Of a stretch of 64,000 bases of DNA, positions 31,560 to 64,000 are shown piece after piece. The notes under the pieces are model-generated. The model worked only from the letters and a program-made list of their open reading frames with translations. It searched no databases and was not told the DNA's origin. The translations under genes and the position numbers were made by a program. Every line of letters begins with the position of its first letter. Position 1 is the first letter of the stretch. Source of the DNA: Allosphingosinicella indica (GTDB lineage Bacteria; Pseudomonadota; Alphaproteobacteria; Sphingomonadales; Sphingomonadaceae); assembly GCF_900177405.1 (NCBI RefSeq), contig NZ_LT840185.1, forward strand, positions 1,851,501-1,915,500. Direction: 5' to 3'.

Positions 31560-33272
31560 TCAGCGCCTCAGACTTTCGAGCCAGTCCGCGACGCCCGTCC
31601 CGCCGCCTTCCGGGTTTCGGCTCATCAGCATCACCGCGTTGAACACCGCCACCAGCGGGTCGATCTTCGCCTTTCCGGCGGCCTGCTTGGTGATGACGAC
31701 ATTGTTGCCGCGCTGCTCGGCCTTCGCATTGCCGACGCACCAGGCCATTAGCCGCTGAGCCGCGTGGCGCAGTGTGCCGTCCTTCAGCTTGCGCTCGGTG
31801 CCGAGCACGGCCGAATTGAGCCGCCAGCCTTGTGCGATGCCCATCATCTGCTCGTCCTCGATTCCTTGCGCGGCCGCTTCGTCGATCAGCGCCGCCACCC
31901 CATAAGGGTCGAGGCCGATCGCATCCTTCTCCGGCAGCAATCCGGCGCCCTTCAGCTTCACCAGAAGCGAGACGACGCCCTCGATATCCTCGGTCGGCCC
32001 GGCGCAGATCGTCAGCTCGCCGTCGTCCGCGAAATCGCGGAGCCGCGCGGCGATTTCCTTGCGCCGCTCCAGCACGTCCGGCTGCGCCCAGGCGTGGCAC
32101 CACAACAGCCATTTGCGCGTCACCCGGTCGCGGCCGATCACCGCGACGCCCAGCAGATCGTCCAGACCGCCGCCGTCGATGCCGACGACGGCGACGTCCG
32201 ATCGCTCCATGAGCGCGTCGAGCGTCAGCCCGTCCTCGCTCGCATCCTCCCAATAGTCCGCGCCGATCCAGCGGTCGCTGTGTAGCGCCAGCCCGATCTC
32301 GACGTTGAGATGCTGCGACGCCCAGCGCCGCAACTCGTCCTCGCCCTTCGCTTCGGCCTGTGCGAACTCGGCCTCGAGCCGCTCCATGTTGATCGACAGG
32401 CCGAGGTTCGGCACCACCATCGGCCAGTTCGCCGGGTCTGCCCACGGCCGCTCCGGGTCGATCTGCATCGCCTCCGGGAATTCGTAGAGCACCGGCAGCA
32501 CGCGCGCCGCCTTGCCGGTCACCCGTCCATCGCGCACCGCCCGCGCCAGTTGCAGCTCTGATCGGAACACGCCTGCCGGCGGCTCGTCGCTCTGCGTCGT
32601 GATCATCGCCAGGAAGCTGTCCGTGCGCGTGATCATGCCGCCGCGGATCTGCCCGATCACGCGCGCCGCGAAGCTGTAGCTCGACATGATATGCACTTCG
32701 TCGAGCAGCACGCCCTTGGGGATCGTGCCCGTCGCAACCTTCATGTCGAAGGTCTTCACCTTCAGCTGGCTGTTGGTCACCAGGTCCACGATCGTCTTGA
32801 CGTGGTCCTTCACGTGATAACGCTGCTGCAGATACCCTTCGGGATCGGCGCGGATCATGCCGACCGCCTGGTAGAAGGCCAGCTCGGCGATCGGCTGCGT
32901 CGGGCCGTAGAGGTGATATTCCTGGTTGAAGTCCTCTTCCAGGATCAGCGCCGTCAGCATGATCGCCGCGCCGCCAGTCGTCTTCGAATTCTTCTTGCCG
33001 ACGAGCGCGAACAGCTCGGCGACGTGGCGGACGTGATCCGCATCGACCGATCCGAACAGCGCCGCGACGATATCGCGGAACCAGTCGCCGGCCGCTTCCG
33101 CCAGCGGCGGCTGTCCTTTGACATCGGGCAACCGCAGCCGGTTGAACACCGCCACCGCTTTGGCCGCCTGCTTTTCGTCCAGCGGAAGCTCCGGCACCAG
33201 CGATGATCCGCTGCGCAGCCGTGCCTCCCAGCCTGGGCACGCGAAGTCCCAGCCGTCCTTCGCCGCCGCCAT
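31560..33272 (-). CDS. Terminase large subunit (HK97/P22-like TerL)
   Basis: This 570-aa motor/nuclease has the Walker A-like LVGKKNSKTTGGA and Walker B GVLLDEVHIM. A C-terminal RNase H-fold nuclease contains GIDGGGLDDLLGVAVIG and ends with IDPLVAVFNAVMLM. It packages DNA into the prohead and cuts concatemers. The preceding HNH gene may assist cos cleavage. Confidence 0.92.
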   Translation of the reverse strand: MAAAKDGWDFACPGWEARLRSGSSLVPELPLDEKQAAKAVAVFNRLRLPDVKGQPPLAEAAGDWFRDIVAALFGSVDADHVRHVAELFALVGKKNSKTTGGAAIMLTALILEEDFNQEYHLYGPTQPIAELAFYQAVGMIRADPEGYLQQRYHVKDHVKTIVDLVTNSQLKVKTFDMKVATGTIPKGVLLDEVHIMSSYSFAARVIGQIRGGMITRTDSFLAMITTQSDEPPAGVFRSELQLARAVRDGRVTGKAARVLPVLYEFPEAMQIDPERPWADPANWPMVVPNLGLSINMERLEAEFAQAEAKGEDELRRWASQHLNVEIGLALHSDRWIGADYWEDASEDGLTLDALMERSDVAVVGIDGGGLDDLLGVAVIGRDRVTRKWLLWCHAWAQPDVLERRKEIAARLRDFADDGELTICAGPTEDIEGVVSLLVKLKGAGLLPEKDAIGLDPYGVAALIDEAAAQGIEDEQMMGIAQGWRLNSAVLGTERKLKDGTLRHAAQRLMAWCVGNAKAEQRGNNVVITKQAAGKAKIDPLVAVFNAVMLMSRNPEGGGTGVADWLESLRR

Positions 33273-44197: not shown

Positions 44198-44520
44198 GCC
44201 GCCACCTCCCCCCTCTCCCGCGCGCGGGAGAGGGCCGGGGTGAGGGTGATATTTTCGGCGGCGATAGTTGCAGCGGCATCCGCCACTGCGGCGCTATCCC
44301 TCTCGTCATGATCCGCCGCCGCCAGCTCCGCATCCTTTTCCGCCATGAAGGCGGCAAGGCGCTGCAGAACCTTGAGGGAGGGCGAACGCCCTTCGCGGAT
44401 GCTCTTGATCAGCTGCGGCTCGCCCGTCGCATCACGCCCAAAGCGGGTCGGCGGCATCGCGTGACGATCGAGGAACGCCTCGATCTTCGCCAGCAACTCG
44501 TCATCGCTCGGAATGTCCAT
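44194..44520 (-). CDS. Cro-like small regulator
   Basis: A 108-aa protein: the first 65 residues (LLAKIEAFLDRHAMPPTRFG, then LIKSIREGRSPSLKVLQRLA) form a HTH-like domain. The C-terminal residues encode a translated REP-like sequence (ITLTPALSRARERGEV). It diverges from the CI-like repressor across a shared operator region and is the first gene of the lytic leftward program. Its predicted promoter is TTGCCT-N17-TTATTT. Confidence 0.65.
   Translation of the reverse strand: MDIPSDDELLAKIEAFLDRHAMPPTRFGRDATGEPQLIKSIREGRSPSLKVLQRLAAFMAEKDAELAAADHDERDSAAVADAAATIAAENITLTPALSRARERGEVAA
44207..44252. repeat. REP-like element inside the Cro-like reading frame
   Basis: CCCTCTCCCGC and GCGGGAGAGGG arms form a near-perfect palindrome, with GCCGGGGTGAGGG beyond. 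It matches in type the element at 24894-24929. It lies within the last 20 codons of the Cro-like gene, so the repeat is translated. Confidence 0.6.
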
Positions 44521-44528
44521 GCGCGCTG

Positions 44529-44583
44529 AAATAAGTCAGCGAACGCTGAATAGGCAAGAGGAAATGTCAGCGGACGCTAAAAT
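44529..44583. promoter_or_regulatory. Divergent cro/cI promoter region with two 14-bp operators
   Basis: Operator 1 at 44536-44549 reads TCAGCGAACGCTGA and lies in the spacer of the leftward promoter (-35 at 44552-44557, -10 at 44529-44534, 17-bp spacing). Operator 2 at 44567-44580 reads TCAGCGGACGCTAA and overlaps a good rightward -10 (TAAAAT, 44578-44583) for the repressor. Two related sites occur at 46151-46194. The consensus TCAGCG-N2-CGCTGA is a perfect dyad, expected for a dimeric CI protein. Confidence 0.75.
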
Positions 44584-44620
44584 AGACGCGCCCGAGGGCG
44601 TGTGCAATATCGCTGACACG

Positions 44621-45325
44621 ATGGCAGAGCCGCAGAACTCCGCGCTTTACGATGCGCTCATGGCCGTCAAGCCGCCAGAGTTGACGCGCAATGCCTGGGC
44701 GATGAAGGCGGGCGTCAATCGATCGGTGTTCGCCGATATCAAGTCGCGCGGCAACGCGAAGCACGACACGCTGGACAAGCTGCTCGACGCGATCGGCGTC
44801 AGCTTCGCGCAGTTCGATGCGGGCCGCGCCACGGTGCGCACCGAGGTTGCCGGCACCGGCATTCAGGATGTGCGCCGCGAGTTTCTGGGGGAGGGGCCGA
44901 GCGCGCCGCTGCCGCTGCTCGGCTCGGCGATGGGCAGCGAGTTCGGAGATATCGATGCACATATCGAGATGACCGAGCTTCACGTTGGCGAAGTACTGGA
45001 CTATCTCGCGCGGCCGGCCACGCTGCGCGAGGATCAGAACGCCTATGCGCTGACCATCATCGGCGATTCGATGTTTCCGCGCTTCAAGCCCGGCGAGCGC
45101 GCCGCGGTCAGCCCGCGCCAGGCCGTCCACATCGGAGACGACGTGATCGTCCAGCTACGCGCAGCAGATGGCGAGGACGAGCGCGTGAAGATGGTGCTGG
45201 TCAAGGAACTGGTGCGACGTTCCGCCGCGTTCATCGAGCTGCGTCAGTATAATCCCGACGTTACCTTCCGCATCGAAGCGAACCGCGTGAAGCACATGCA
45301 TCGCGTCAGCGGGCGATTGTTTTAG
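44621..45325 (+). CDS. CI-like repressor with S24 autoprotease domain
   Basis: The 234-aa product has an N-terminal HTH (LTRNAWAMKAGVNRSVFADI). A C-terminal LexA/CI peptidase follows: ALTIIGDSMFPRFKPGERA carries the nucleophilic Ser, and MVLVKELVRR the Lys. It maintains lysogeny and would be inactivated by RecA* after DNA damage. ATG 44621 is preferred because an upstream ATG at 44564 lies before the predicted -10 box at 44578; GTG 44600 is also possible. The repressor diverges from the Cro-like gene. Confidence 0.85.
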   Translation: MAEPQNSALYDALMAVKPPELTRNAWAMKAGVNRSVFADIKSRGNAKHDTLDKLLDAIGVSFAQFDAGRATVRTEVAGTGIQDVRREFLGEGPSAPLPLLGSAMGSEFGDIDAHIEMTELHVGEVLDYLARPATLREDQNAYALTIIGDSMFPRFKPGERAAVSPRQAVHIGDDVIVQLRAADGEDERVKMVLVKELVRRSAAFIELRQYNPDVTFRIEANRVKHMHRVSGRLF

Positions 45326-48753: not shown

Positions 48754-49515
48754 ATGATGCAATCGACATTGAGGATCGAGAGCGACGCGAAGACCCATGA
48801 GGGCCGCGTCCGCCCGATGAACGAGGACAGCTTCATCGCCCTGGAAGGCAACGGCTTCTGGGCCGTCGCCGACGGGATGGGTGGGCATGAGAAGGGCGAG
48901 TGGGCGAGCGCCTGCGTCGTTGCCGAGTTCGAGAAGATCGAATTTCCGGAATCGTTCGAGGAAGCGGCCGACCGCATCGTCGCGGCGGTGGTGACCGCCA
49001 ACCGCTGCGTCTATGCCGAGGCGACCCAGCGCAAGCTGCAGATGGGATCGACCATCGTCGCACTCTACATGCGAGATCGCCATTATGCGGTCTTCTGGGT
49101 GGGGGACAGCCGCGCCTACCGGCTGCGTGGCGGCAAGCTCGAGCAATTGAGCCGCGATCATAGCCAGGTGCAGGAAATGGTCGACCGCGGGCTGATGGAG
49201 GCCAAGGATGCCGTCGGCCACCCGATGGGCCACGTGCTGACCCGCGCGGTCGGCGTCCGGCCCGAGATTGAGGTCGATCGCGCGATCGGCGAGGTCGAGC
49301 CCGGCGATACCTATCTGCTCTGCAGCGATGGCCTCCACGGCTATGTCGACGAGGCGGAGATCTTGCGGCTATTGGGGCGCGGCTCGCCCGGCGAGGCGTC
49401 CGAGCAGCTGGTGGTGCGCACGCTGGAGCGCGGCGCCCCAGATAATGTGACTGTCGTGACCGTATCGGTTTCCGAGCCGACCCTCCTATCGCTACCTCCC
49501 GGAGGCGACGCATGA
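48754..49515 (+). CDS. PP2C-family Ser/Thr phosphatase
   Basis: This 253-aa PPM phosphatase carries the full motif set: RPMNEDSFIA, WAVADGMGGHEKGE, MGSTIVALYM, FWVGDSRAYRLR, HVLTRAVG and LCSDGLHGYVD. Two metal ions bind the Asp residues. Overlap of 4 bp with the downstream kinase indicates they act on the same phosphoproteins. The trio kinase/phosphatase/FHA resembles T6SS post-translational control modules (PpkA/PppA/Fha). Confidence 0.92.
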   Translation: MMQSTLRIESDAKTHEGRVRPMNEDSFIALEGNGFWAVADGMGGHEKGEWASACVVAEFEKIEFPESFEEAADRIVAAVVTANRCVYAEATQRKLQMGSTIVALYMRDRHYAVFWVGDSRAYRLRGGKLEQLSRDHSQVQEMVDRGLMEAKDAVGHPMGHVLTRAVGVRPEIEVDRAIGEVEPGDTYLLCSDGLHGYVDEAEILRLLGRGSPGEASEQLVVRTLERGAPDNVTVVTVSVSEPTLLSLPPGGDA

Positions 49516-51470
49516 GTGACAAGAACGATAAGAAGCCCGACGCGGAGGAAGCCAAGACGGTCTTCATGCCGTCCGAGAATCTGCCGCCCGCGCCGCCGCC
49601 CAAGCCGAAGAAGGCCAAGGCCGAAAAGCCCAAGGCGGATGCGCCTGCGGCGGGCGAGACGCCCGCCGTCGCCGCCGAGCCGACGCCCGAGCAGAAGGAA
49701 GTCGGCACCGCCTTCGAGGCGCGTACCGACACGCGCGGCATCAAGGTGGGCGACGTCCTCAACCACATCTTCGAAGTGAAGCGCTTTCTCGCCCGCGGCG
49801 GGATGGGCGAGGTGTTCGAGGGCTGCAACGTCAATTCGGACGAGAAGGTCGCGATCAAGGTGATGCTGCCGCAGCTCGCTGCGGACGAGAAGGTGGTGGG
49901 ACTCTTCCGGCGCGAAGCGCGCACGCTGACCCGCCTGCACCACGAGGCGCTGGTCCAGTATCGCGTGCTGGCGCAGGAGCCGAACCTCGGCGTCCTCTAT
50001 ATCGTCACCGAGTTCATCGAGGGCGTGAACCTCGCCGACGCGCTCGGCAAGATCACGCCGACGCCGGAGGAGCAGGCGCAACTGCTGCGCCGCCTTGCCT
50101 CGGGCCTGCGCGCCGCGCATTCGCTGGGCGCCGTCCACCGCGATCTCTCGCCCGACAACGTGCTGCTGCCCGACGGCAAGCTGTCGCGCGCCAAGATCAT
50201 CGATTTCGGCATCGCCAAGGACATGGAGGCGGGATCGGCGACGATCGTCGGCGACGGCTTCGCCGGCAAGCTCAACTATGTCGCGCCCGAGCAACTCGGC
50301 GATTACGGGCGCGAGATCGGCCCGTGGACCGACATCTACAGCCTCGGCCTCGTCATGCTCGCCGTCGCCAACGGCAAGAATGTCGATATGAGCGGATCGC
50401 TCGTCGATGCGATCGACAAGCGCCGCAAGGGCCCGGACATGGCGAAGGTCGCGCCGCTGATGCTGCCGGTGCTGGAAGCGATGCTGAAGCCCGATCCGGC
50501 GCAGCGCCTGCGCTCGATGGACGAAGTGCTTGCCGCGCTCGACCAGACCGGCGTCAAGCCGCAGCCGGGCGAGGAAACGGGCGCGATCGGCGGCCTTTCA
50601 GCGACGCCCTCGGGCGGCGTCCCCAAGCCGCTGCTGATCGGCGGCGGCATCGCGGCCGCAGCGGCGATTGCGGCCGCGGCCTGGTTCACGCTCGGCCGCG
50701 GCGACACGCCGGCCGGCCCCGGCATCCAGCCCGCCTCGCGCGCGCCGGCCGATGTCGCCCGCGCCGCGATCGATGCGACCATCCCCTCGGTGAGCTGCAC
50801 CTGGCTCGAAGTCGGCGCCGTCGAGGAGAAAGCGGGCGCGGTGCGCGTCGCGATGCGCGGGGTCGCCGGCAACGGCGCCGCGGCGCAGACCGAGCTCGGC
50901 CAGGCGCTGACCGCCGCGGGCGTCGCCAACGCGACGATCGATATGGGCGATGTCGCGCCGATCACGGCAGCGGGCTGCGCTGCGCTCGATACCTTCCGCC
51001 AGGTTCGCGCGACCGAGAATGACAGCCTGTCGATCGCCGCGCCGCGGTTCGAGATGACGCGCCAGGCAGCAGGTCCGTTCGCCGGCAAGGAAGCGGTAAC
51101 GGCGCCGATCGAGATCACCCCGGCAACGGACGCAGATTTCGCGATTGCCGGGATCGAGCCTTCGGGCGCAATTACCGTCCTCATCCCCGATCGCGCCGCG
51201 TTCAACCGCGAACTGGCCAATTCGCAGAATGGCCGCCCGATCCAGGACGAAGGGCAGGGCAAGTACAAGCTCAACATCGATCTCGACCACACCGGCTGGT
51301 CGGGGATCATGCTGGTGACCGGCAAGGGGCCGTTCGACACAAATCTCGTCCAGCCGCCGATCGGCGCGCGCGGGCCGAGCTGGCAATCGAGCTTCCTGGC
51401 CGCCGCCGCGCAACGCGGCTGGAAGGCGGAGATGGTCTGGTTCGAGACGGTGAACGACAAGCCGGACTGA
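49512..51470 (+). CDS. Transmembrane Ser/Thr protein kinase
   Basis: This 652-aa protein has a cytoplasmic kinase domain at about residues 80-345, with VAIKVM (Lys), HRDLSPDNVLL and IDFGIAKD. The catalytic loop has Ser in place of the common Lys (HRDLSPDN), as in PpkA-like kinases. One TM helix (LLIGGGIAAAAAIAAAAWF) lies near residue 385. The extracytoplasmic domain (TIPSVSCTWLEVGAVE onward) is unassigned. It forms an operon with the PP2C gene and faces the FHA/TagH gene. Confidence 0.92.
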   Translation: MSDKNDKKPDAEEAKTVFMPSENLPPAPPPKPKKAKAEKPKADAPAAGETPAVAAEPTPEQKEVGTAFEARTDTRGIKVGDVLNHIFEVKRFLARGGMGEVFEGCNVNSDEKVAIKVMLPQLAADEKVVGLFRREARTLTRLHHEALVQYRVLAQEPNLGVLYIVTEFIEGVNLADALGKITPTPEEQAQLLRRLASGLRAAHSLGAVHRDLSPDNVLLPDGKLSRAKIIDFGIAKDMEAGSATIVGDGFAGKLNYVAPEQLGDYGREIGPWTDIYSLGLVMLAVANGKNVDMSGSLVDAIDKRRKGPDMAKVAPLMLPVLEAMLKPDPAQRLRSMDEVLAALDQTGVKPQPGEETGAIGGLSATPSGGVPKPLLIGGGIAAAAAIAAAAWFTLGRGDTPAGPGIQPASRAPADVARAAIDATIPSVSCTWLEVGAVEEKAGAVRVAMRGVAGNGAAAQTELGQALTAAGVANATIDMGDVAPITAAGCAALDTFRQVRATENDSLSIAAPRFEMTRQAAGPFAGKEAVTAPIEITPATDADFAIAGIEPSGAITVLIPDRAAFNRELANSQNGRPIQDEGQGKYKLNIDLDHTGWSGIMLVTGKGPFDTNLVQPPIGARGPSWQSSFLAAAAQRGWKAEMVWFETVNDKPD

Positions 51471-51495: not shown

Positions 51496-52695
51496 TTAGG
51501 GTCGGCCCTTGACTATCTGCTTGGCATAGGCCTTGCGGAATTCCTTGGCGAACACCTCCATGAACGCCTCGTCCGACTGGCTGGCGACGGTGTTGAATTC
51601 CTTCTCGTAATTGTTCCACAGCGCCGCATCGCGCGCGGCGGGCAGGATGCGGGCGAGCAGGCCGATATTGTCGGCGCGGCGCTTGATCGATCCGGGCGAG
51701 AAGCGCTCCAGCGTCTGGCGAAGCGCTCCCGGGATCGCGGCCATCGTCGCCACCTGGTGCGACTGGATATCGACGAACGCATCCTCGATGGCCTTCTCGG
51801 CGTCGAGGAAGCCCTGCTGAGTAGGATTGACGAGCTGCGCGAGCGCCGCCTCGGGCGTGCGCGCGAACTTGATCGGGTTGTTGCCGTCGAGCTGAAGCTG
51901 CGTCGCCTCGGCGCCCATCTGCGATTTCGCGCGGGCACGCGATTCCACCATGATCACGAGGCCCGCGACGAGCCGCCGGAGCAGCGAGCCGCCCTTGACG
52001 ATCGCTTCTGACGCCTCGGCCGTGATCTTGCTGCGTTCGATGCCGGCTGCCGTGAGATAGGCATTGGCTAGTTCGTCCGCCGTCGCCGCGACCATCGCCT
52101 GCGTCGCCGCGGCGCGATCGTCGGCGCCGAAGCCGCCGCGGTCCCAATCGATGCTGTTGGCGCCGGCGACCTTCTCCCACAGCGCTTCCTGCTCGGGCGC
52201 GAGGGCGACTTCTTCCTCGCCGGCTGCGCCACCGGCATCCGGGCCCGGCGCGAACACGGTGTGCTGCGGGTCGGCGGCAGGTGCGGGTGCCGGCGCGGCA
52301 TCCGCGGCCGGAGCGAACACGGTGCGCTCGGGCTCCGCGGGTGCGGCCGGAACCGGCTCGGGCGGCGGGGGAGGGGCCACTACGTCCGCAGCGACCTTCG
52401 CGGTCACCGCATAGGGGCCGATCTTGAAGCTATCGCCGTCGGCGATGCGGCGCTCCTCGGTCATCCGCTCGGCGGCGCCGTTGAGGAAGGTGCCGTTGGT
52501 GCTGATGTCCTTGAATATGTAGCCGTCGCCGTCGCGCCGCAGCTCGGCATGGCGCGAGGAAATGTAGTTCTTGGCGTCGGGGAGGGTCCAATCGCAGTTG
52601 GCGGAGCGACCGATGATCGCGCTCTCGCCCTCAAGCGTGAAATCGGCCGGTGCCCCCTCCGGCTTGGGGTCTGCAACGCTCAAGGTCAAAGCCAT
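51496..52695 (-). CDS. tagH: FHA-domain protein of the T6SS TagH/Fha type
   Basis: This 399-aa protein has an N-terminal FHA domain with canonical phosphothreonine residues (IIGRSANCDWTLPD, SSRHAEL, DISTNGTFLNG). An Ala/Pro-rich linker follows. The C-terminal region (FLDAEKAIEDAFVDIQSHQV onward) matches the T6SS TagH C-terminal domain. It is the expected target of the adjacent kinase/phosphatase pair. No T6SS structural genes are visible in the window. The start is ATG 52695. Confidence 0.82.
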   Translation of the reverse strand: MALTLSVADPKPEGAPADFTLEGESAIIGRSANCDWTLPDAKNYISSRHAELRRDGDGYIFKDISTNGTFLNGAAERMTEERRIADGDSFKIGPYAVTAKVAADVVAPPPPPEPVPAAPAEPERTVFAPAADAAPAPAPAADPQHTVFAPGPDAGGAAGEEEVALAPEQEALWEKVAGANSIDWDRGGFGADDRAAATQAMVAATADELANAYLTAAGIERSKITAEASEAIVKGGSLLRRLVAGLVIMVESRARAKSQMGAEATQLQLDGNNPIKFARTPEAALAQLVNPTQQGFLDAEKAIEDAFVDIQSHQVATMAAIPGALRQTLERFSPGSIKRRADNIGLLARILPAARDAALWNNYEKEFNTVASQSDEAFMEVFAKEFRKAYAKQIVKGRP

Positions 52696-52905
52696 CGGTC
52701 TCGTGACACTCCTTCCCACCCGCGTCGCCGGACGCACCTCTTAGCAACGGCCTCTCGGGCCGACAACCGGGCGGCTTGCTCGCAGGATTTGCGGGCTTCG
52801 TCGCAGGATAGCCACCGCTCACCTTGTCGTTTCCCCGCCCGGAAGCTATGATCTGCGGGCATTATTGGCGGCTATTGCCGTCTTTGAAGGTGGGGAATTT
52901 TCAAA

Positions 52906-55183: not shown

Positions 55184-56271
55184 CGGGCGATCGCCTCGGC
55201 GATCCGCGGTCCCGCCGCACCGTCGCCGAACGGAAAGGCGGGCGTGGCCATGGTTTCGTAAAGGTGCGGCTGGTCCACCAGGGCGCGGACCTCGCGATAG
55301 ATGCGCGCCGGGTCGGCACCGACGAGCTTGAGGCAGGGACACGGCTCCGTCCGTTCGGTTGCGTCGCGCAGCACCAGCACCGGCGTGCCGAACGCGGGCG
55401 CCTCCTCCTGCAGTCCGCCGCTGTCGGTCAGCACCAGCCAGCATTGCCGGAGCAACCGGACGGTCGCTTCATAATCGAGTGGCGGGACAAGTTCGATATG
55501 CTTCGATCCCCCCAACAGGTCGCGGATCGGCCCCGCAACATGCGGGTTGGCGTGGAGCGGCAGCAGCACGCGCACCGGCAGTTCGTCGACCAGACGGCGG
55601 AGCGCCGCCGCGATGCCCGTCAGCCGATCGCCGCGATTTTCGCGCCGATGGCAGGTAACGAGGATCAGGCGCCGCGCGCCGCTGTCACGCTCCACCGTGC
55701 CCATCGCATCCGTGGTGGCGAGCAGTGCATCGATGCCGCTGTTGCCGGTTACGATCGCTTGGCCGCGGACGCGCTCCGACCGGAGGTTGCGCAGCGCCGT
55801 CTCGCTCGGCGCGAACAGCAGCGTCGCGATCCGGTCGATCACTATACGATGGATCTCTTCGGGCCACGGATCGGTGGGGTGGTGCGAGCGTAGCCCCGCT
55901 TCGACGTGACCGATGGGAAGCCGGCTGTCGTGCGCGGCGAGCGCTCCTGCCAGGGCGCTGGACGTATCGCCCTGCACGAGCACGATTGCGGGTGATGCAG
56001 CCAGCATCGCCGGGCGAAGGCGATCGCGAAGGTGCTCCCGTATCTCGCCCGCGGAAAGATGGGCGGGATCGAATCCGATTTCGGCAGTGTCGGCCTGCAG
56101 CGCGGGTGGGATGTGCGGACGCAGTCCGCCATGTTGGCCGGTCAGGACGATATGCTGTGCAAAGCCCCGCGCCGCAAGCGCGCGGAGGACCGGCGCCATC
56201 TTGATGGCTTCAGGTCTGGTTCCGATGATCGATAGGACGGGGGAGGTCGTCGTGCGGCGGCTAACCGCCAC
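55165..56271 (-). CDS. wecB: Non-hydrolysing UDP-N-acetylglucosamine 2-epimerase
   Basis: This 368-aa protein has the WecB/MnaA pattern: IIGTRPEAIKMAPVL, GHVEAGLRS, VTCHRRENRGDRL and TDSGGLQEEAPAFG. It converts UDP-GlcNAc to UDP-ManNAc for surface polysaccharides. Overlaps with both neighbours (11 bp and 19 bp) make a three-gene operon with the CcmI-like and aroG genes. No other surface-sugar genes are nearby. Confidence 0.92.
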   Translation of the reverse strand: MAVSRRTTTSPVLSIIGTRPEAIKMAPVLRALAARGFAQHIVLTGQHGGLRPHIPPALQADTAEIGFDPAHLSAGEIREHLRDRLRPAMLAASPAIVLVQGDTSSALAGALAAHDSRLPIGHVEAGLRSHHPTDPWPEEIHRIVIDRIATLLFAPSETALRNLRSERVRGQAIVTGNSGIDALLATTDAMGTVERDSGARRLILVTCHRRENRGDRLTGIAAALRRLVDELPVRVLLPLHANPHVAGPIRDLLGGSKHIELVPPLDYEATVRLLRQCWLVLTDSGGLQEEAPAFGTPVLVLRDATERTEPCPCLKLVGADPARIYREVRALVDQPHLYETMATPAFPFGDGAAGPRIAEAIARWLERA

Positions 56272-57208
56272 CGCCCGGCACGCTCAGCTCCTGCGCAGCC
56301 TGGCGGAGCCGGCCTTGCGTCGCGCTGTCGCCCTGGAAGGCGGCGAGGCCGGAGGCGAGGGCGGCGCGCGCCGCCGTCGGATCGTTGAGCACCATGCGCG
56401 ATCGCATCAGGCGGATCCAGCCGTCGGCGTCCTTGGGGTTGGCCTTCAGCCGCGCCTCGAGCCGCGAGACCATGCCCTTCACCATCTCGTCCTGCTCGCC
56501 CGGCGGGATCGAGGAGGCGGAGGCGAGTTGCTCGGCGGTCGGGCCGGGGATCGCCGCGGTGGCGACCGATCCCGCCGACGGCGCGGGCATCCGTCCGGCA
56601 ACGTCGATGCCTTCCTTCTCGGCGACCTGATTGATCGTCCGGCGCACGTCCGCCTCATAGACCGCGCCCGCCGGCGCATCGCGCAGCATCGCGATCCAAT
56701 CGTCGATCGCGCCCTTGTGGTCGCCGTTCAGATCCTTCTGCACCGCGGTGAAGTAGCGCGCGCGGGGATCCTTGGGATCGATCTTCAGCGCCCGCCCGAA
56801 GGCGGAGGCCGCTTCGGGCTCCACCTTGGTGCTGTTGCGCTGGATCGCCTCGCCGAGCGACGACCAGTTCTCCGCATTGTTGGGCTCGACCTCGGCGGCG
56901 CGACGGTAGGCGCCGGCCGCGGCGCCGAGATCGCCGGTCTCGAAATAGGACCAGCCGAGCATCCGCCAGTCGGCCGCATTGTCGGGATCGCGCTTCAGCC
57001 TCTCGGCGACCTTGGCGATCGAATCCTCCAGCGTGCCGACCGGCTGATCCGACTTCACCGCGCCGTGCGGACTCGCGACCGTATTGTCGGCATCGTCCGA
57101 TCGCAGCAGCGCGACTCCGGCGGACGCGGCCAGGACCACGCCTGCGGCGATCAGCGCCATGGTGGATGCGGACGGCAGGCGCCGCGCGGAAGTATTGCCC
57201 TCGCTCAT
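56261..57208 (-). CDS. CcmI/CycH-like TPR protein (cytochrome c maturation)
   Basis: This 315-aa protein has one N-terminal TM (STMALIAAGVVLAASAGVAL) and TPR repeats (NAADWRMLGWSYFETGDLGA, then ENWSSLGEAIQRNSTKVEPE). CcmI proteins present apocytochrome c to heme ligation. The gene is divergent from the multiheme cluster, so a role in its maturation is attractive, though a generic TPR function remains possible. ATG 57208 is chosen over an upstream start that reads through the promoter region. Confidence 0.65.
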   Translation of the reverse strand: MSEGNTSARRLPSASTMALIAAGVVLAASAGVALLRSDDADNTVASPHGAVKSDQPVGTLEDSIAKVAERLKRDPDNAADWRMLGWSYFETGDLGAAAGAYRRAAEVEPNNAENWSSLGEAIQRNSTKVEPEAASAFGRALKIDPKDPRARYFTAVQKDLNGDHKGAIDDWIAMLRDAPAGAVYEADVRRTINQVAEKEGIDVAGRMPAPSAGSVATAAIPGPTAEQLASASSIPPGEQDEMVKGMVSRLEARLKANPKDADGWIRLMRSRMVLNDPTAARAALASGLAAFQGDSATQGRLRQAAQELSVPGGGG

Positions 57209-57365
57209 GACTGCGATCTTTCCTGCAAAATAATGAACGTCAAGTCTGGCGCAGCGCGGACAACGTGATAGAGTGAGGATGGCGACAGGCCCTGCTAGCC
57301 TGGCTTGTTGCCCATTATCGCGTCGGCCGTAAGTCGGTTTCGCGTTGAATGGGGGTGGGAAAAAG

Positions 57366-59801
57366 GTGGCGGAATCGTTCCGGATCGCGATCGTGGGATC
57401 GGGGCCCGCGGGGCTCAGCGCCGCTGGGCGTGCCGCGCAGCTCGGCATCAGCCACGTGCTGCTCGAAAAGACCGACCATCTGTCGGACACGATCTACAAA
57501 TATCAGAAGGGCAAGCACGTCATGGCGACGCCGAGCCAGCTCGTGCTGCGCTCGGACCTCGATTTCGAGGCGGGCAAGCGCGAGGGGATTCTCGGCGTCT
57601 GGGATCGGCAGGCGGAAGAGCGCAAGATCAACGTCCGCAAGAATTCCGACGTCAAGGCGATCAGCGGCGCCAAGGGCGATTTTACCCTGACGATGACGAG
57701 CGGCGATACCGTCAAGGCCGAATATGTCGTGCTTGCGATCGGGACGCAGGGCAACCCGAACAAGATGCGCTGCGAGGGCGGCGATCTGCCGCACATCCAA
57801 TATCAGCTCGACGATCCGGGTGAATATATCGACGAGCATATCACGATCGTCGGGTCGGGCGATGCGGGCATCGAGAATGCGCTCGGCCTCGCCGCCGATC
57901 TCGAGCAGAACAACACCGTCAGCATCCTCAACCGCAGCGCCGATTTCGCGCGCGCGAAAGGTGCCAACGTCAAGCTGCTGATGGAGGCGCGCGATAACGG
58001 CCGCGTCAGCGTCTATACCGAGACTTCGCCCGCGAAGGTGGAGAAGGGCTGGCTGACGCTGGAGACGCGCGATGGCGAGCAGCGTATCCGCTGCGACCGG
58101 ATCATCGCCCGCCTCGGCTCCGCGCCGCCGCGCCAGTTCGTCGAGGCCTGCGGCGTCCAGTTCAGCAGTCCGGAGCGCGAATCCTATCCGCAGCTTTCGC
58201 CGCAGTTCGAGACGACGGTGCCCGGCATCTACGTCATCGGCGCGCTGGCGGGCTATCCGCTCATCAAGCATTGCATGAACCAGGGCTATGACGTCGTCGA
58301 GTTCATCAACGGCAATGCCGATCTCAAGCCCGCCGACGAGCCGATCCTGGAGCAGAAGTTCAAGGCGCTTCCCGGCACCCGCAGCGTCGAGGAGTGGCTC
58401 GCCTTCTTCCGCCGCCGCGTGACGATCCTCAACGATCTGTCGATGTTGCAGATGCGCGAGTTCATGCTCGATTCGGAGCCTGCCATGTATCGCGCGGGCG
58501 ACGTGCTGGTGGAGCGCAACGAGCCCGGCTCCTCGCTCTTCGCGATCGCCGACGGATCGGTGATGGTCGAGATCGATCCCACCAACCCTGACGTCACCGT
58601 GCCGATCGAGCAGGGCTCGATCTTCGGCGAGGTCGGCCTGATTTCGGGCCGCCGCCGCGGCGCGACGGTGCGCACCGCCACCGGCGCGATCGTGATCGAG
58701 ATTCCGCGCATGTCGGCGCTGAAGCTGATGGCGACGGTGCCGGCGGCGAAGCGCGCGATCACCCGCATCTCGACCGAGCGCCAGCTTCTCCAGATGTTCG
58801 GATCGGCGCTGTCGCCGGAGGATCTGCACGAGGTGCTCGAAACCTCCGAGATCAAGAGCGTGCGTGCCGGCGAGTCGATCATCAACGAGGGCGAGGAAGG
58901 CTATGACATCTTCGTCATCCGCTCGGGCTCGATGGTCGTCGAGAAGGCGATCGGCGGCAAGTCGGTATTCCTCTCCTATCTGCCCGCCGGCTCCTACGTC
59001 GGCGAGATGGCGCTAATCGACGGCGGCCGCCGCACCGCGACCGTCCGCGCGGCGATCAAGTCGGAGGTCATCCGCCTCGACGGCACGGCGATGCGCAAGT
59101 TGCTGGAAAGCAAGCCGGAGCTGATGAACCGCTTCAAGAGCGAGATGTCGTCGCGCCAGTCGCTCACCAGCTTCGTCGAGGCGAAGAAGGATGGGTTCGG
59201 CGGCGTCGTCGACATGTATTCCTCCGTCGCGACCTTCCTGCTCGAAAACGGCATCGGCGAAGCGACCGACGTGCTGCTGATCGACGAGAAGCTCTGCGTC
59301 GGCTGCGACAATTGCGAGAAAGCGTGTGCTGACAGCCACGAGGGCCTGTCGCGGCTCAATCGCGAGGCAGGTAAGACCTTCGCGCATCTCCATGTGCCGA
59401 CCTCGTGCCGGCATTGCGAGCACCCACATTGCATGTCCGATTGCCCGCCGAACGCGATCCATCGCGGCCCGGACGGCGAAGTCTTCATTGACGAGACCTG
59501 CATCGGCTGCGGCAACTGCCAGCGCAACTGCCCCTACGGGGTGATCCGGATGGACAAGGTGCCGCCGAAGAAGCCGGGGCTGCTGCAATGGCTGTTCTTC
59601 GGCGCGGGGCCGGGGCCGGGCGAACCGTCCAAGGCCTGGTCGTACAAACGCAGCGATCCGGAAAAGCCGAAGAAGGCGATCAAGTGCGACATGTGCGCCG
59701 GCATCGACGGCGGCCCGGCCTGCGTGCGTGCCTGCCCGACGGGCGCGGCGATCCGCGTCGCGCCGGAGGAATTCTTGACGGTGGCCCGCCTTGGCGAATG
59801 A
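57366..59801 (+). CDS. FAD oxidoreductase, two cNMP-binding domains and four [4Fe-4S] sites in one protein
   Basis: This 811-aa fusion has four parts. Residues 1-330 are a pyridine-nucleotide-disulfide-type FAD/NAD(P) domain (IAIVGSGPAGLSAAGRAA and IVGSGDAGIENA, without a CxxC active site). Residues 370-480 and 500-600 are cyclic-nucleotide-binding domains (FGEVGLISGRRRGATVRT, then GEMALIDGGRRTATV). From about 640 a DmsB/HybA-type ferredoxin follows with 16 Cys in four clusters (CVGCDNCEKAC, CRHCEHPHCMSDC, CIGCGNCQRNC, CDMCAG...CVRAC). No signal peptide is present, so it is cytoplasmic or peripheral. GTG 57366 is preferred (GGGGGTGGG upstream) over ATG 57345. Confidence 0.9.
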   Translation: MAESFRIAIVGSGPAGLSAAGRAAQLGISHVLLEKTDHLSDTIYKYQKGKHVMATPSQLVLRSDLDFEAGKREGILGVWDRQAEERKINVRKNSDVKAISGAKGDFTLTMTSGDTVKAEYVVLAIGTQGNPNKMRCEGGDLPHIQYQLDDPGEYIDEHITIVGSGDAGIENALGLAADLEQNNTVSILNRSADFARAKGANVKLLMEARDNGRVSVYTETSPAKVEKGWLTLETRDGEQRIRCDRIIARLGSAPPRQFVEACGVQFSSPERESYPQLSPQFETTVPGIYVIGALAGYPLIKHCMNQGYDVVEFINGNADLKPADEPILEQKFKALPGTRSVEEWLAFFRRRVTILNDLSMLQMREFMLDSEPAMYRAGDVLVERNEPGSSLFAIADGSVMVEIDPTNPDVTVPIEQGSIFGEVGLISGRRRGATVRTATGAIVIEIPRMSALKLMATVPAAKRAITRISTERQLLQMFGSALSPEDLHEVLETSEIKSVRAGESIINEGEEGYDIFVIRSGSMVVEKAIGGKSVFLSYLPAGSYVGEMALIDGGRRTATVRAAIKSEVIRLDGTAMRKLLESKPELMNRFKSEMSSRQSLTSFVEAKKDGFGGVVDMYSSVATFLLENGIGEATDVLLIDEKLCVGCDNCEKACADSHEGLSRLNREAGKTFAHLHVPTSCRHCEHPHCMSDCPPNAIHRGPDGEVFIDETCIGCGNCQRNCPYGVIRMDKVPPKKPGLLQWLFFGAGPGPGEPSKAWSYKRSDPEKPKKAIKCDMCAGIDGGPACVRACPTGAAIRVAPEEFLTVARLGE

Positions 59802-59888
59802 AGCCGGCGGGATCGCACCGATGCGTAAGGGGAGCCCGGCCGGTATCCGGGGCATGGGAACGGCTTGGGGTGCGGGGGCGCTGACCTG

Positions 59889-60767
59889 ATGGCGAGCAGG
59901 GGGTTAGGACAGATCGGCGCGGGGTCGGCCGCAGTGAGCCATGAGAGCTTCCTGCGCCACAAGAGCTACCGCTGGCTGAAGATCGCGACCTTGCTGTGCT
60001 TGGTGTCGCTCGTCGCCTATATATTCGCGGACGTGCAGCCGCGGCCGAATGGCGGAAGCTGGCTCGGCTATACGCTCGGCACCATCGGCGCGCTGCTGAT
60101 CCTCTGGCTGACCTTGCTCGGCGTCCGCAAGCGCGCGATGACGCCGGGGCGCTGGTCACTCAAGGCGTGGACCTCGGCGCACGTCTATCTCGGCCTTTCG
60201 CTCATCATCGTCGCGACGCTGCACACCGGCTTCCAGTTCGGCTGGAACGTCCACACGCTCGCTTATGCGCTGATGATGCTGGTCATCATCTCGGGCATCT
60301 ACGGAATCAGCGTCTATGCGCTGCTGCCCGGCGAGCTTTCCGACAATCGCGTCGAGATGACCAAGCCGCAGATGATCGAGGCGGTGCGCAAGGTCGATCA
60401 GCAGCTCCAGATTTCCGCGCAGCCGCTGGCGATCGAGGATTCGGAGCTGGTGCTCGCCTCGGTCGATACCGATCCGTTCAAGGCGGGGCTCTTCCGGCGC
60501 CTTTCCGGCCATTATCCCAATTGCGGCAACCGCCGCGCGCTGCGCGAGATGCGCCGCCGCCTCACCACCGCGACCGGCGAGGAAGCCGACAATCTGGAAA
60601 CGATCGTCGGCCTGCTGGAGCGCAAGGAACTCGCGCTGTCGCGCATCCGCCGGCATTTGCGCATCCGCGCGATGCTGGAGGTGTGGCTCTACGTCCATGT
60701 GCCCGTCACCTTCGCGCTGATCGCGGCGTTGCTGGCGCACATCATCTCCGTCTTCTTCTACTGGTAA
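59889..60767 (+). CDS. Cytochrome b-like membrane protein
   Basis: This 292-aa protein has five predicted helices. Helix 3 (AHVYLGLSLIIVATLHTGFQ) and the last helix (YVHVPVTFALIAALLAHIIS) each carry paired His residues that could ligate b hemes; NVHTLAY adds another. A soluble loop of about 110 residues lies between helices 4 and 5. It is located between the Fe-S fusion and the decaheme gene, fitting a quinol/electron transfer unit across the membrane. Heme binding is inferred. Confidence 0.7.
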   Translation: MASRGLGQIGAGSAAVSHESFLRHKSYRWLKIATLLCLVSLVAYIFADVQPRPNGGSWLGYTLGTIGALLILWLTLLGVRKRAMTPGRWSLKAWTSAHVYLGLSLIIVATLHTGFQFGWNVHTLAYALMMLVIISGIYGISVYALLPGELSDNRVEMTKPQMIEAVRKVDQQLQISAQPLAIEDSELVLASVDTDPFKAGLFRRLSGHYPNCGNRRALREMRRRLTTATGEEADNLETIVGLLERKELALSRIRRHLRIRAMLEVWLYVHVPVTFALIAALLAHIISVFFYW

Positions 60768-60780
60768 GGGGAGCGAAACG

Positions 60781-62634
60781 ATGGCTTTCCTGACCCGCCA
60801 AATCTCGCACAGCGCCGAAGGGCGCGAGATCGTTCGCAGCGCGCGGATCGACGATGATCTGATCCGCATCGGCCGCGATCCCTCGTGCGACATCAAGCTC
60901 ACTGATCTCGCGGTCGCGCTGCAGCACGCCGTCATCGAGCGTATCTCGGGCGGCCAGCTCGGCGTTTCCGCCAGCACCGGCCTTCGCGTCGAGCTCAACG
61001 GATCGAGCGTGCCGTTCGGCCGCATCGATCTTGCGCAGGGCGGTGAGATCCGCATCGCCAGCCACCTCATCCGCGTCATGCCAACGCCCGCCGGCGCCGA
61101 CGATGTCGAGCTGGTGCTGGAGCGCGTCGCGGAGGGCGAGGGCAAGCTGGACGCCGCCGACGATGCGCGCTTCTCGCTCGTCTCGGTCATGCCCACCAAG
61201 CGCATCGCCGCCTGGGCGGTGGTGGTGGCGGTGCTGCTCGCCTTCCTGGCGTGGCCGATCAAGAGCGCGTTCGACCAGCGTCAGGCGCAGGCCGCGCAGG
61301 CGGCGAGCCCGCCGGCGGCGATCCCCGCCGCGGCGCAGAAATTCCACGCCGATTCGATGTGGAGCAGCGGCAAGCTCTCGCAGGCGCACGCCTCGCTCGA
61401 GAACAATTGCGTCGCGTGCCACGCCACGCCGTTCGTCGCCGTGCGCGACGAATCCTGCCGCGATTGCCACGTCTCGATCCACGATCACGCCGATCCGTTC
61501 CGCATGGCGCGCGCGCAGCCAGACCTTTCGACCTGGGGCCGTGTCCAGCTTGCGGTGAAGGAGACGTTCAACCTGCCGCCGGGCCGCTGCGTCGATTGCC
61601 ACAAGGAGCATGAGGGCAATCAGGTGATGCCGGTGACCGAGCAGCGTTTCTGCAGCGATTGCCACGGGGGGCTCGACAAGAAGCTGCCCGACACCAAGCT
61701 CGGCAATGCCGATGATTTCGGAAAGACCCATCCCGAGTTCCAGCCCGCGGTCATCACCCGCTGGAACGGCGATCAGCCAGTGCTGCAGCGCATGTCGCTG
61801 GCCGCCAAGCCGAAAGAAATGAGCAACCTCAAATTCCCGCACGATCTCCACCTCTCCAAGACCAACGGGGTGGCGCAGATGGCGCGGCGGCTGGGCTCGC
61901 GCTTCGGCTTCGGCCAGGCGATGGAGTGCAAGGATTGCCACGTCGCGACGCCGGACGGGGTGCGCTTCCAGCCGGTCGACATGGAGACCGATTGCCAGAT
62001 GTGCCACAGCCTAGCCTTCGATCGGCAGGGCAGCACGCTGCGGACGCTGCGTCATGGCGATCCGGCGCAGGTGGTTGCGGACATGCGCGACTTCTACCGC
62101 GCCCGCGTCCCCAATCCGCCGGCGACGCTGGGCGGCATGTCGCGCCGCCTGCCGGGCGAGAATATCGATGTCCGCAACCAGCGGCAGTTCCAGATCGCCA
62201 ATGCGGCGCCGGGCCGGGCCGAGCGCGCCATCCGCGCGGTCTTCTCGCCGGGCGGGGCCTGCTACGATTGCCACGTCGTCCAGCCGCCGCCGCCGGGCTC
62301 CCTCAATTACGAAATCCGTCCGGTCGCCTTCCCGATCCGCTTCATGAACCATGGCTGGTTCGACCATAAGGCGCATGCCAACGAAACCTGCACGAGCTGC
62401 CACAAGGCGGAAAGCTCGGCGAGCGCGACCGATCTGATGCTGCCCGATCTGGCGAGCTGCCGGACGTGCCACGGCGGCGAAAACTCGAAGGCGGACGTGC
62501 CGTCCTCCTGCGCGATGTGTCACGATTATCATATGGACACCGGCGTGCCCTCGATGCTGATCCGCCAGCAGGTGCGCGGCAAGCGCCAGGACACGACGGC
62601 TAAGGTGGAGCCGGCCAAGGCGGCATCGCGATAG
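60781..62634 (+). CDS. FHA-domain / TM / decaheme cytochrome c fusion
   Basis: This 617-aa protein has an N-terminal FHA-like domain (LIRIGRDPSCDIKLTD, LNGSSV). The usual Ser before the conserved His is absent (VALQHA). One TM helix follows (AAWAVVVAVLLAFLAWPI, about residue 140), then a periplasmic domain with ten CxxCH sites (CVACH, CRDCH, CVDCH, CSDCH, CKDCH, CQMCH, CYDCH, CTSCH, CRTCH, CAMCH). The topology places hemes outside and FHA inside. It follows the cytochrome b-like gene by 13 bp. Confidence 0.9.
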   Translation: MAFLTRQISHSAEGREIVRSARIDDDLIRIGRDPSCDIKLTDLAVALQHAVIERISGGQLGVSASTGLRVELNGSSVPFGRIDLAQGGEIRIASHLIRVMPTPAGADDVELVLERVAEGEGKLDAADDARFSLVSVMPTKRIAAWAVVVAVLLAFLAWPIKSAFDQRQAQAAQAASPPAAIPAAAQKFHADSMWSSGKLSQAHASLENNCVACHATPFVAVRDESCRDCHVSIHDHADPFRMARAQPDLSTWGRVQLAVKETFNLPPGRCVDCHKEHEGNQVMPVTEQRFCSDCHGGLDKKLPDTKLGNADDFGKTHPEFQPAVITRWNGDQPVLQRMSLAAKPKEMSNLKFPHDLHLSKTNGVAQMARRLGSRFGFGQAMECKDCHVATPDGVRFQPVDMETDCQMCHSLAFDRQGSTLRTLRHGDPAQVVADMRDFYRARVPNPPATLGGMSRRLPGENIDVRNQRQFQIANAAPGRAERAIRAVFSPGGACYDCHVVQPPPPGSLNYEIRPVAFPIRFMNHGWFDHKAHANETCTSCHKAESSASATDLMLPDLASCRTCHGGENSKADVPSSCAMCHDYHMDTGVPSMLIRQQVRGKRQDTTAKVEPAKAASR

Positions 62635-62649
62635 GATCATGAAAACGCG

Positions 62650-63504
62650 ATGCTGATCGCGCAGATTACCGACATCCACCTGGGCTTCGAGCCCAACAAT
62701 CCTGCCGAGTTCAATCGCAAGCGGCTGGACAAGGTGCTCGCGCGCCTGGTCGCGACCAACCCGCGACCCGACATGCTGATCGTCAGCGGCGACATGGCCG
62801 ACACCGGCGACGACAGCGCGTCCTACAAAAGGCTGCGCTCGGCGCTGTCGCAATTCCCGGTGCCGACCTATTTCTGCATGGGCAATCACGACAGCCGCGG
62901 CGCCTTCACCCGCTACTTCCCGCACATCCCGACCGCCGACGGCTTCGTCCAATATGCGGTCGATGATTGGCCGCTCCGCATCCTCGTCCTCGATACGCTG
63001 GAGGAGGGGCGGCACAGCGGCAATTTCTGCGAAACGCGCGCCGCCTGGCTGCGCGCGCGGCTGGCGGAGGCGCCGGACAAGCCGACGCTCATCGTCCTCC
63101 ACCACCCGCCGATCGACAGCGGGCTGAGCTGGATGACCGAGAATCCGGAAGCCGAGTGGGTGCTCCGGCTGCGCACGATCCTAGAGGCGCAGGACAATAT
63201 CGTCGCGATGGTCGCCGGCCATCTGCATCGGCCGGTGATGACGCAATGGGCGGGGACGCGGCTGATGGTCTGCCCGTCGACCGCGCCGCAGGTGGCGCTC
63301 GATCTCGCCGCGATCGATCCGGACAAGCCCGACGGTCGCGCCATGATCGTCGCCGATGCGCCGGGCTATGCGCTCCATCTCTGGAACGGTGCCTCGCTCG
63401 TCTCGCATTTCGACAGCGCGGAGGAACATACCGTGCTCGCGCGCTACGAGCCGGCGCTGCAGCCGCTCGTTCAGATGCTCGCCGCCGAACGCGCGATCGA
63501 CTGA
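62650..63504 (+). CDS. CpdA-like metallophosphoesterase (class III cyclic nucleotide phosphodiesterase type)
   Basis: This 284-aa enzyme has the binuclear metal motifs: DIHLG, VSGDMADTG, MGNHDSRG, VLHHPPIDSG and AGHLHRPVM. The family hydrolyses cAMP or other phosphodiesters. It is the last gene of the plus-strand cluster, 15 bp after the decaheme gene. Two cyclic-nucleotide-binding domains in the first gene make cAMP a plausible substrate. Confidence 0.85.
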   Translation: MLIAQITDIHLGFEPNNPAEFNRKRLDKVLARLVATNPRPDMLIVSGDMADTGDDSASYKRLRSALSQFPVPTYFCMGNHDSRGAFTRYFPHIPTADGFVQYAVDDWPLRILVLDTLEEGRHSGNFCETRAAWLRARLAEAPDKPTLIVLHHPPIDSGLSWMTENPEAEWVLRLRTILEAQDNIVAMVAGHLHRPVMTQWAGTRLMVCPSTAPQVALDLAAIDPDKPDGRAMIVADAPGYALHLWNGASLVSHFDSAEEHTVLARYEPALQPLVQMLAAERAID

Positions 63505-63629: not shown

Positions 63630-64000
63630 TCAGTTGCCGCCGCGCGCCGTGTTGCCGCTCGGCCCGACCCAATCGGCGAAGGTGCCGATGTCGCGCACCT
63701 TGTAGGGGAAGCCCTTGCGGTTGAGGAACAGCCGCTCCTGCTCGGTGCGGGTGAACGGCCGCGACCCGAGGCGCCCGAAGATCGCGATCTGGCCGCCGGT
63801 CTCGTCGACGCCGCGATCGCGGTCGAGGCCCTTGGAGAGCGACAGCGCCGGGCGCGGCGTCTTCGCCCAGGCGATCAGCTCGGGCTTGGGCGCGGGCGAG
63901 AAGCCGTAGACGTTGGGGGTGCTGGCGAAGGAGGTGAGCTGCACCACCTTCATCCCGTTCCGCCCGTCGGCGACATAGGCGAAGAGCGAGGCGTTGGTGG
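63630..64000 (-). CDS. LVIVD-repeat beta-propeller protein, C-terminal part (runs off the right edge)
   Basis: The reading frame continues to base 64000 without a start, so only the C-terminal 123 codons are seen. Visible are YVADGRNGMKVVQLTSFAST (LVIVD repeat) and RPFTRTEQERLFLNRKGFPY. LVIVD repeats form beta-propellers, often secreted. The gene is convergent with the phosphodiesterase. An internal ATG at 63953 is not a likely start because homologous sequence precedes it. Confidence 0.7.
   Translation of the reverse strand, partial: TNASLFAYVADGRNGMKVVQLTSFASTPNVYGFSPAPKPELIAWAKTPRPALSLSKGLDRDRGVDETGGQIAIFGRLGSRPFTRTEQERLFLNRKGFPYKVRDIGTFADWVGPSGNTARGGN

Follow-up and report, generated by a model that had tools for sequence, protein, structure and literature searches.

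A conserved sphingomonad locus that may carry electrons from NAD(P)H across the cell envelope under cyclic-nucleotide control

The window analysed here is a stretch of 64,000 nucleotides from Allosphingosinicella indica (contig NZ_LT840185.1, positions 1,851,501 to 1,915,500). Between its positions 57366 and 63504 lie four genes, here called A to D, for a flavin and iron-sulfur (Fe-S) protein with cyclic-nucleotide domains, an inner-membrane cytochrome b, a decaheme cytochrome c and a metallophosphoesterase-like protein. We lean towards reading this locus as part of a cyclic-nucleotide-controlled, outward trans-envelope electron line that starts from NAD(P)H. Gene content, gene order, co-inheritance, ligand conservation and a natural fusion of A with B can all be seen directly in the genomes. 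A-B-C-D is half of a larger system, and the genes E to H, most of which lie beyond the window, are its predicted outer-membrane half.

In the proposed line, the flavin adenine dinucleotide (FAD) of A would take electrons from NAD(P)H, and the four [4Fe-4S] clusters of A would pass them to two b hemes of B, with ligands H98/H270 on the cytoplasmic and H112/H284 on the periplasmic side. B would hand the electrons to ten bis-His periplasmic hemes of C, and C to an outer-membrane module in which the barrel F is joined by two multiheme cytochromes, E and H. A and B would act as one physical unit, to which C would be docked from the cytoplasm via its FHA-fold domain, and two protein-kinase-A/CRP-like cNMP domains, placed between the flavin and Fe-S halves of A, would switch electron transfer on and off. 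Outward flow seems most likely because NAD(P)H is a low-potential donor. Since flow from inside to outside would dissipate membrane potential, an ungated line would be wasteful, and this would explain a built-in gate. We infer the outward redox direction and the cyclic-nucleotide gate from the potentials and from where the cNMP domains lie in A; the docking, the contact with the outer membrane and the terminal substrate are proposals as well. That a cyclic nucleotide on the tandem domains of A directly opens or closes flow from the cytoplasm through both membranes, in sphingomonads and throughout the Alphaproteobacteria, as an allosteric and not a transcriptional control, is a tentative suggestion that we hold with some doubt.

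Layout of the locus

All four open reading frames (ORFs) are on the + strand, with intergenic gaps of 87 (A-B), 13 (B-C) and 15 bp (C-D), as the first-pass annotation of this DNA had stated. A (57366..59801, 811 aa) is a fusion of a FAD/NAD(P) oxidoreductase, two cNMP domains and a 4x[4Fe-4S] part, recognised by Pfam and by conserved Cys and Glu/Arg. B (59889..60767, 292 aa) is an inner-membrane di-heme cytochrome b, as judged from conserved heme-type His motifs. C (60781..62634, 617 aa) combines an FHA-fold domain, one transmembrane (TM) helix and a decaheme cytochrome c (Pfam, 10 CXXCH). D (62650..63504, 284 aa, PF00149) resembles class III cyclic-nucleotide phosphodiesterases and is an accessory metallophosphoesterase of the sphingomonad lineage. 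The domain makeup previously given for A, C and D is thus confirmed by Pfam, and that of B, as cytochrome b-like, by four conserved heme-type His.

Gene E, for a decaheme cytochrome c with LVIVD repeats, is cut by the window edge at 64000, so that only its 3' part (63630..64000, - strand) is seen; the full protein has 1389 aa, and the gene runs on to about 67799 in the source genome, a single 2.8-Mb contig from which all positions past 64000 are extrapolated. Beyond the window and on the same strand as E (-) follow F, a predicted outer-membrane barrel (67799-69892, 697 aa), G, an HbpS-like lipoprotein with the lipobox LASC (69899-71869), and H, a c554-like tetraheme cytochrome with four CXXCH and one CX4CH (71872-73257).

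Conservation and co-inheritance

B has 32 matches, 28 of them strong, in a set of 118 related genomes that counts the window's own. Wherever B is strong, the short locus around it shows one and the same order of A, B and C (28/28), so that the co-occurrence in sphingomonad genomes which the first-pass annotation had suggested as a check was found for these three genes. A-B-C are also present in 26/26 longer sphingomonad loci. Over a wider set of 106 loci, A and B are present in all and C in 104, with a B-C gap of 2-85 bp; this set is made up of 26 plus 80 loci (80 kept of 267 found), which partly overlap, some coming from the same contigs. Outside the family, 20 longer loci were chosen from 34 strong genomes of the class. 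These loci, from other alphaproteobacterial families, contain B-C in 20/20, A directly upstream in 18/20, G-F in 16/20 and E in 15/20 cases; of the remaining two, A lies downstream of E in one, and the other ends before A would be visible. In a sample of the phylum, B was found in 15 of 398 genomes, five of them outside the class, and all five have A-B-C. Chance clustering of unrelated genes was considered and rejected in view of the conserved A-B-C order across loci.

E follows B through the genomes. A strong E was found in 30/118 relatives, comprising all 28 with strong B and 2 of the 90 others (Fisher p 4e-25), and these two are incomplete assemblies (86% and 67% complete). Among 385 Alphaproteobacteria, 37 have a strong B and 29 a strong E, all 29 within the B set (p 1e-36), and the 26 genomes of the window's genus include 13 with B and 14 with E (p 1e-6); shared ancestry is ignored in these three tests. 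As several relatives have E on a different contig from B or at a long distance from it (e.g. G009, G026, G056, G067), the co-occurrence does not come from linkage alone.

Both halves also stand on the plasmid pMSHV of Sphingobium herbicidovorans (L259), in the order T / A-B-C-D / two other genes / E-F-G-H, where T is the divergent neighbour of A described below. This plasmid, 959 kb long and typed as conjugative, encodes proteins 48-71% identical to those of the window. They are annotated there as tetratricopeptide repeat (T), cyclic nucleotide-binding domain-containing (A), hypothetical (B), cytochrome c3 family (C), metallophosphoesterase (D), multiheme c-type cytochrome (E), hypothetical (F), heme-binding (G) and cytochrome c family protein (H). 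Plasmid records with B number 12, all from Sphingobium.

The inner-membrane half

Residue conservation was read from an alignment of near and distant sequences, in which near sequences were thinned and short distant ones dropped (kept from the 20 distant loci: A 18, B 20, C 20, E 9, H 6) and columns were called conserved at >=93%.

In A, Pfam recognises Pyr_redox_3/2, two cNMP_binding stretches, Fer4_11 (PF13247, 47.3 bits, cut-off 26.2) and other 4Fe-4S models. The 16 Cys ligands of the four clusters are kept in 64/64 sequences. To score the two cNMP domains we used the Glu and Arg that we take to mark the phosphate-binding cassette. Among sphingomonads these are retained as E422 in 91/91, R431 in 91/91, E547 in 90/91 and R556 in 91/91 sequences, and each in 64/64 once the 18 distant sequences are added. 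This supports the prediction that both domains bind a cyclic nucleotide, which had already been made for A. In the second domain, most sequences have R-T/S-A after the cassette Arg, a sequence that favours cGMP in protein kinase G, so the ligand of A could be cAMP or cGMP. In the source genome, the class III cyclase family, the only cyclase class searched, has a single match.

Two genomes from outside the Alphaproteobacteria, both of the same genus, have A and B as a single frame (L251:3052-6423, 1123 aa; L252:6850-10206, 1118 aa), each frame with FAD, two cNMP, Fe-S and B parts.

B carries the motifs W94-x3-H98-x13-H112, S135-G-x2-G139 and W266-x3-H270-x13-H284. Both WX3HX13H motifs are found in 126 of 127 homologues and SGxxG in 124, and H98, H112, H270, H284 and H122 are retained across near and distant sequences. 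A structure model built from 46 close homologues predicts five long helices (28-46, 58-82, 92-112, 121-156 and 231-291). Lys and Arg are concentrated in the TM2-TM3 loop (5) and the TM4-TM5 segment (20), with 0-1 in the opposite loops, a distribution that would place H98/H270 on the cytoplasmic and H112/H284 on the periplasmic side. The start codon of B is uncertain, as conservation starts near residue 16-18. Pfam gives it only the b561 model Ni_hydr_CYTB, at 23.9 bits and so under the cut-off of 30.1 bits, and no PDB sequence matched at E<=1.

In C, Pfam recognises Cytochrome_C7/c3 and, at 25.2 bits (cut-off 20.7), FHA. The protein has a single hydrophobic helix, near residues 142-160. Ten CXXCH are present in 97/97 sphingomonad and 20/20 distant alphaproteobacterial sequences. 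Ten further His (203, 236, 277, 317, 354, 357, 425, 529, 532 and 584) are each conserved in 69/69 sequences, except H236 in 68/69. This is the number needed for ten bis-His hemes, and C therefore reads as a probable electron wire rather than a catalyst. Against the MtrC/MtrF-type model C scores 24.6 bits, below the cut-off of 30.

The FHA domain had been taken for a signalling domain. It is indeed present, and the Arg of GR (R32) is kept in 97/97 sphingomonads. The Ser of SxxH, which together with this Arg presumably makes up the phosphothreonine-binding motif and contacts the phosphate, is found in only 1/97 sphingomonad and 1/20 distant sequences, which weakens the case for phospho-signalling. 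Furthermore, the usual FHA Asn is Asp in 80/97 sequences, and all four distant homologues scanned score higher against the YscD cytoplasmic domain than against FHA. On its sequence, we read this FHA-fold domain as a putative docking domain.

Of the four-gene unit first described, A-B-C are supported as a transmembrane redox unit, while the case for D as a member is weakened and the second multiheme gene, E, had been missed. Likewise, the electron path once drawn from NAD(P)H to the periplasm agrees with the order, the fusion and the heme and Fe-S ligands of A-B-C, but it left out the outer-membrane half E-F-G-H. D reaches 134.2 of 400 bits with the SpdA model and 98.5 of 225 bits with the CpdA model (NCBIfam), under cut-off with both and nearer to SpdA. 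It is found in 23/26 longer sphingomonad loci and in 0/20 loci outside the family. Judged by this distribution, D is an apparent lineage-specific neighbour, not a core part of A-B-C, and together with the scores this leaves the local cAMP turnover ascribed to it weak. A plain CpdA-cAMP module was considered and rejected on the same 0/20.

The outer-membrane half

E has ten CXXCH in addition to its LVIVD repeats, as well as many invariant non-heme residues in near and distant sequences, and it has no match among PDB sequences. A homologue of F from Sphingomonas cavernae (L100) was modelled with 18 strands of >=10 residues, at a mean predicted local distance difference test score (pLDDT) of 57.7 and strand block means of about 65-86. 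Searched against the PDB, this predicted structure comes closest to AlgE, the alginate exporter (E 7e-16). The four 4-heme proteins from PCC4-type loci share 33-41% identity with H (E<=6e-74).

T (56261..57259, - strand), the divergent neighbour of A, is a tetratricopeptide repeat (TPR) protein of the CcmH/CycH-NrfG type (PF23914, 73.5 bits, cut-off 42) and probably an apocytochrome c maturation factor. Its start codon is uncertain, with the frame open to 57490. Strong matches to T (E<1e-30) occur in 30/118 relatives, including all 28 with strong B.

Relation to known electron conduits

The closest published system is PCC4, described in the main text of He et al. 2017 (PMC5566968) as a putative cluster of a porin, 4-, 5- and 10-heme cytochromes and an inner-membrane protein (IMP). 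According to the same text, the IMP has five TM helices, SGxxG on TM4 and WX3HX13H on TM3 and TM5, and the clusters of Subgroup II have, upstream of the IMP gene, a PF13247 Fe-S gene that was once annotated as one gene with it. This single annotation compares with the A-B fusion in L251 and L252. B has the same five predicted TM helices, SGxxG and two WX3HX13H; A would be the PF13247 gene upstream of the IMP, H the 4-heme cytochrome and C the 10-heme cytochrome, the last assigned by heme count and not by comparison with the paper's own sequences. The porin gene would be F, by its barrel model and the AlgE match, yet F is unlike the PCC4-type porin-like protein. Moreover, there is no 5-heme cytochrome gene among A-H; E (10 hemes and LVIVD), F and G stand here in place of the 5-heme protein and its porin. 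A, B, C and H fit PCC4, whereas a 5-heme protein is missing and F does not resemble its counterpart. By gene content we file the locus as a PCC4-like variant that differs in its outer-membrane half, and not as PCC4 proper. Four of the 20 loci outside the family are without G-F-E, and three of these (L205, L213, L216), which also have A-B-C, carry 4-/5-heme cytochromes and another porin-like protein.

FAD, cyclic nucleotide, FHA, LVIVD and any word that starts with 'sphing' are absent from the main text of PMC5566968, although its supplements may show cNMP or flavin domains; the main text does list an Erythrobacter sp. among the bearers of PCC3. Four of our loci from other families of the same order (L049, L050, L059, L060) were called PCC3-like by composition only. 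They share a B-like IMP, cytochromes with 19-33 CXXCH and a flavin protein 28-32% identical to A residues 3-268, i.e. without the cNMP domains, and neither an FHA-decaheme C nor a match to E, F or G was found in them. This A-like flavin protein suggests that partners of the NAD(P) type may be a general feature. By sequence reading only, an ankyrin/Sel1-like protein, a B-like IMP and a barrel-like protein were noticed in L049 and L050. The first-pass annotation knew of no characterised complex of this composition. The combination does differ from PCC3 and PCC4, but with these relatives published the composition is not wholly without precedent.

With MtrCAB, MtoAB and PioAB the locus shares multiheme cytochromes and an outer-membrane barrel, and to our knowledge those systems have no NAD(P)H flavoprotein. 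Homology to MtrAB was considered and rejected, as F has no Pfam match at E<=0.01, a judgement made by Pfam and not by direct comparison with MtrB or PioB. The two HX13H motifs and the path from NAD(P)H to the outside also recall the NADPH oxidase / ferric reductase domain (FRD, PF01794). However, B has no match to PF01794 at E<=0.1 and no fold match, and the flavin and Fe-S domains are on a separate protein. The main text of He et al. 2017 (PMC5566968) draws the FRD comparison for the IMP as well.

Direction of electron flow and alternative explanations

Several observations weigh against an outward line built from both halves. E adjoins A-B-C in only 17/26 longer sphingomonad loci, though every one of the 28 genomes with strong B contains it, and by order strings it stands beside A-B-C in 69/106 loci, many on short contigs. 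B occurs without E in 8/37 strong genomes of the class, and in the 385-genome sample a weak E match appears in two genomes that lack B (G139, G229). A is not always at hand either: L257 has B-C without A nearby, and L258, a 4.8-kb contig, has B with no A nearby and no C seen; both have a shorter 4-heme protein upstream of B and resemble PCC4 Subgroup I, which in the main text of He et al. is without the Fe-S gene. In-frame stops, possibly sequencing errors, interrupt 6/37 strong B matches in the class and E in G001 and G002 (one each). In L251 and L252, the genomes with the A-B fusion, C carries 9 CXXCH, not 10. A fold search with the B model (pLDDT 74) gave no match at E<=0.001, and in blastp neither F against the porin-like proteins of PCC4-type loci (best E 0.44) nor E against their 5-heme proteins (best E 0.016) gave a significant match. 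T stands without B or E in two relatives (G059:C70:14950-15906; G063:C1:2224422-2225330), which suggests a relic or another use of T. Finally, the main text of He et al. 2017 (PMC5566968) models PCC4 in the opposite direction, from an outside donor to the quinone pool.

If flow were inward, as in that PCC3/PCC4 model, E, H or C would be reduced by a donor such as Fe(II) or Mn(II) from outside the cell or from the periplasm, and B would feed the quinone pool or, with energy input, A would make NAD(P)H. B shares its motif with PCC3/PCC4 and is 24-27% identical to the IMPs of the PCC3-like loci. We nevertheless find electron uptake unlikely: a flavoprotein of the NAD(P) type that has its full set of Fe-S clusters adjoins B or is fused with it, which a pure quinone link would not need, and inward flow to NAD(P)+ would run uphill against the membrane potential. 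Alternatively, A-B-C could feed a dedicated reductase of the outer envelope, formed by E and perhaps H and acting on a soluble compound, with no extracellular solid involved. Among sphingomonads A and E are conserved about equally, but outside the family E is best conserved (best pieces 52-60% identity, vs 44-54% for A and 28-34% for C). Its invariant non-heme residues and a weak similarity to ExtM of the selenite/tellurite operon would also suit an enzyme. The ExtM match, at 69.5 bits, is far under the cut-off of 800, however, and heme motifs inflate such matches; F, moreover, is a predicted barrel, as in known conduits. We regard this explanation as rather doubtful, if less so than uptake.

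It is very improbable, in our view, that A is chiefly a YpdA-like redox or thiol sensor which reports to cyclic-nucleotide signalling, with the cytochromes as its electrode. The closest solved relative of its flavin domain in a PDB search is indeed a bacillithiol disulfide reductase of the YpdA family. Yet the catalytic Cys of YpdA presumably sits where the motif GSGPAG of A has Ala (A15, 91/91 sphingomonad sequences), with GSGPCG in the distant homologue L218 as the exception. Pfam found no output domain in A, all 16 Fe-S ligands are retained, and A is fused to B in two genomes.

Neighbouring genes

A PP2C phosphatase (48754-49515, +), a Ser/Thr kinase (49512-51470, +) and a type VI secretion system (T6SS)-type FHA protein (51496-52737, -) are encoded 4.6-8.6 kb upstream of the locus in the window. 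The kinase was considered as a partner for the FHA domain of C and rejected, since a kinase is found in only 4/25 other longer sphingomonad loci (L032, L033, L035, L058), a count limited by locus length. The window also has prophage-like genes for a tail tape measure protein (21265-23376, -), a terminase large subunit (31560-33272, -) and an S24 peptidase-like, repressor-type protein (44513-45325, +).

Implications

For predicted conduits with an IMP previously proposed to use quinone, the outward, NAD(P)H-fed line would offer NAD(P)H, via A, as a candidate point of electron entry and cyclic nucleotides as a candidate control element. It also places such a system in named, culturable sphingomonads, for example Sphingobium herbicidovorans. 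Both the possible feeder of PCC-type conduits and a control of the current at the protein level thereby become directly testable.

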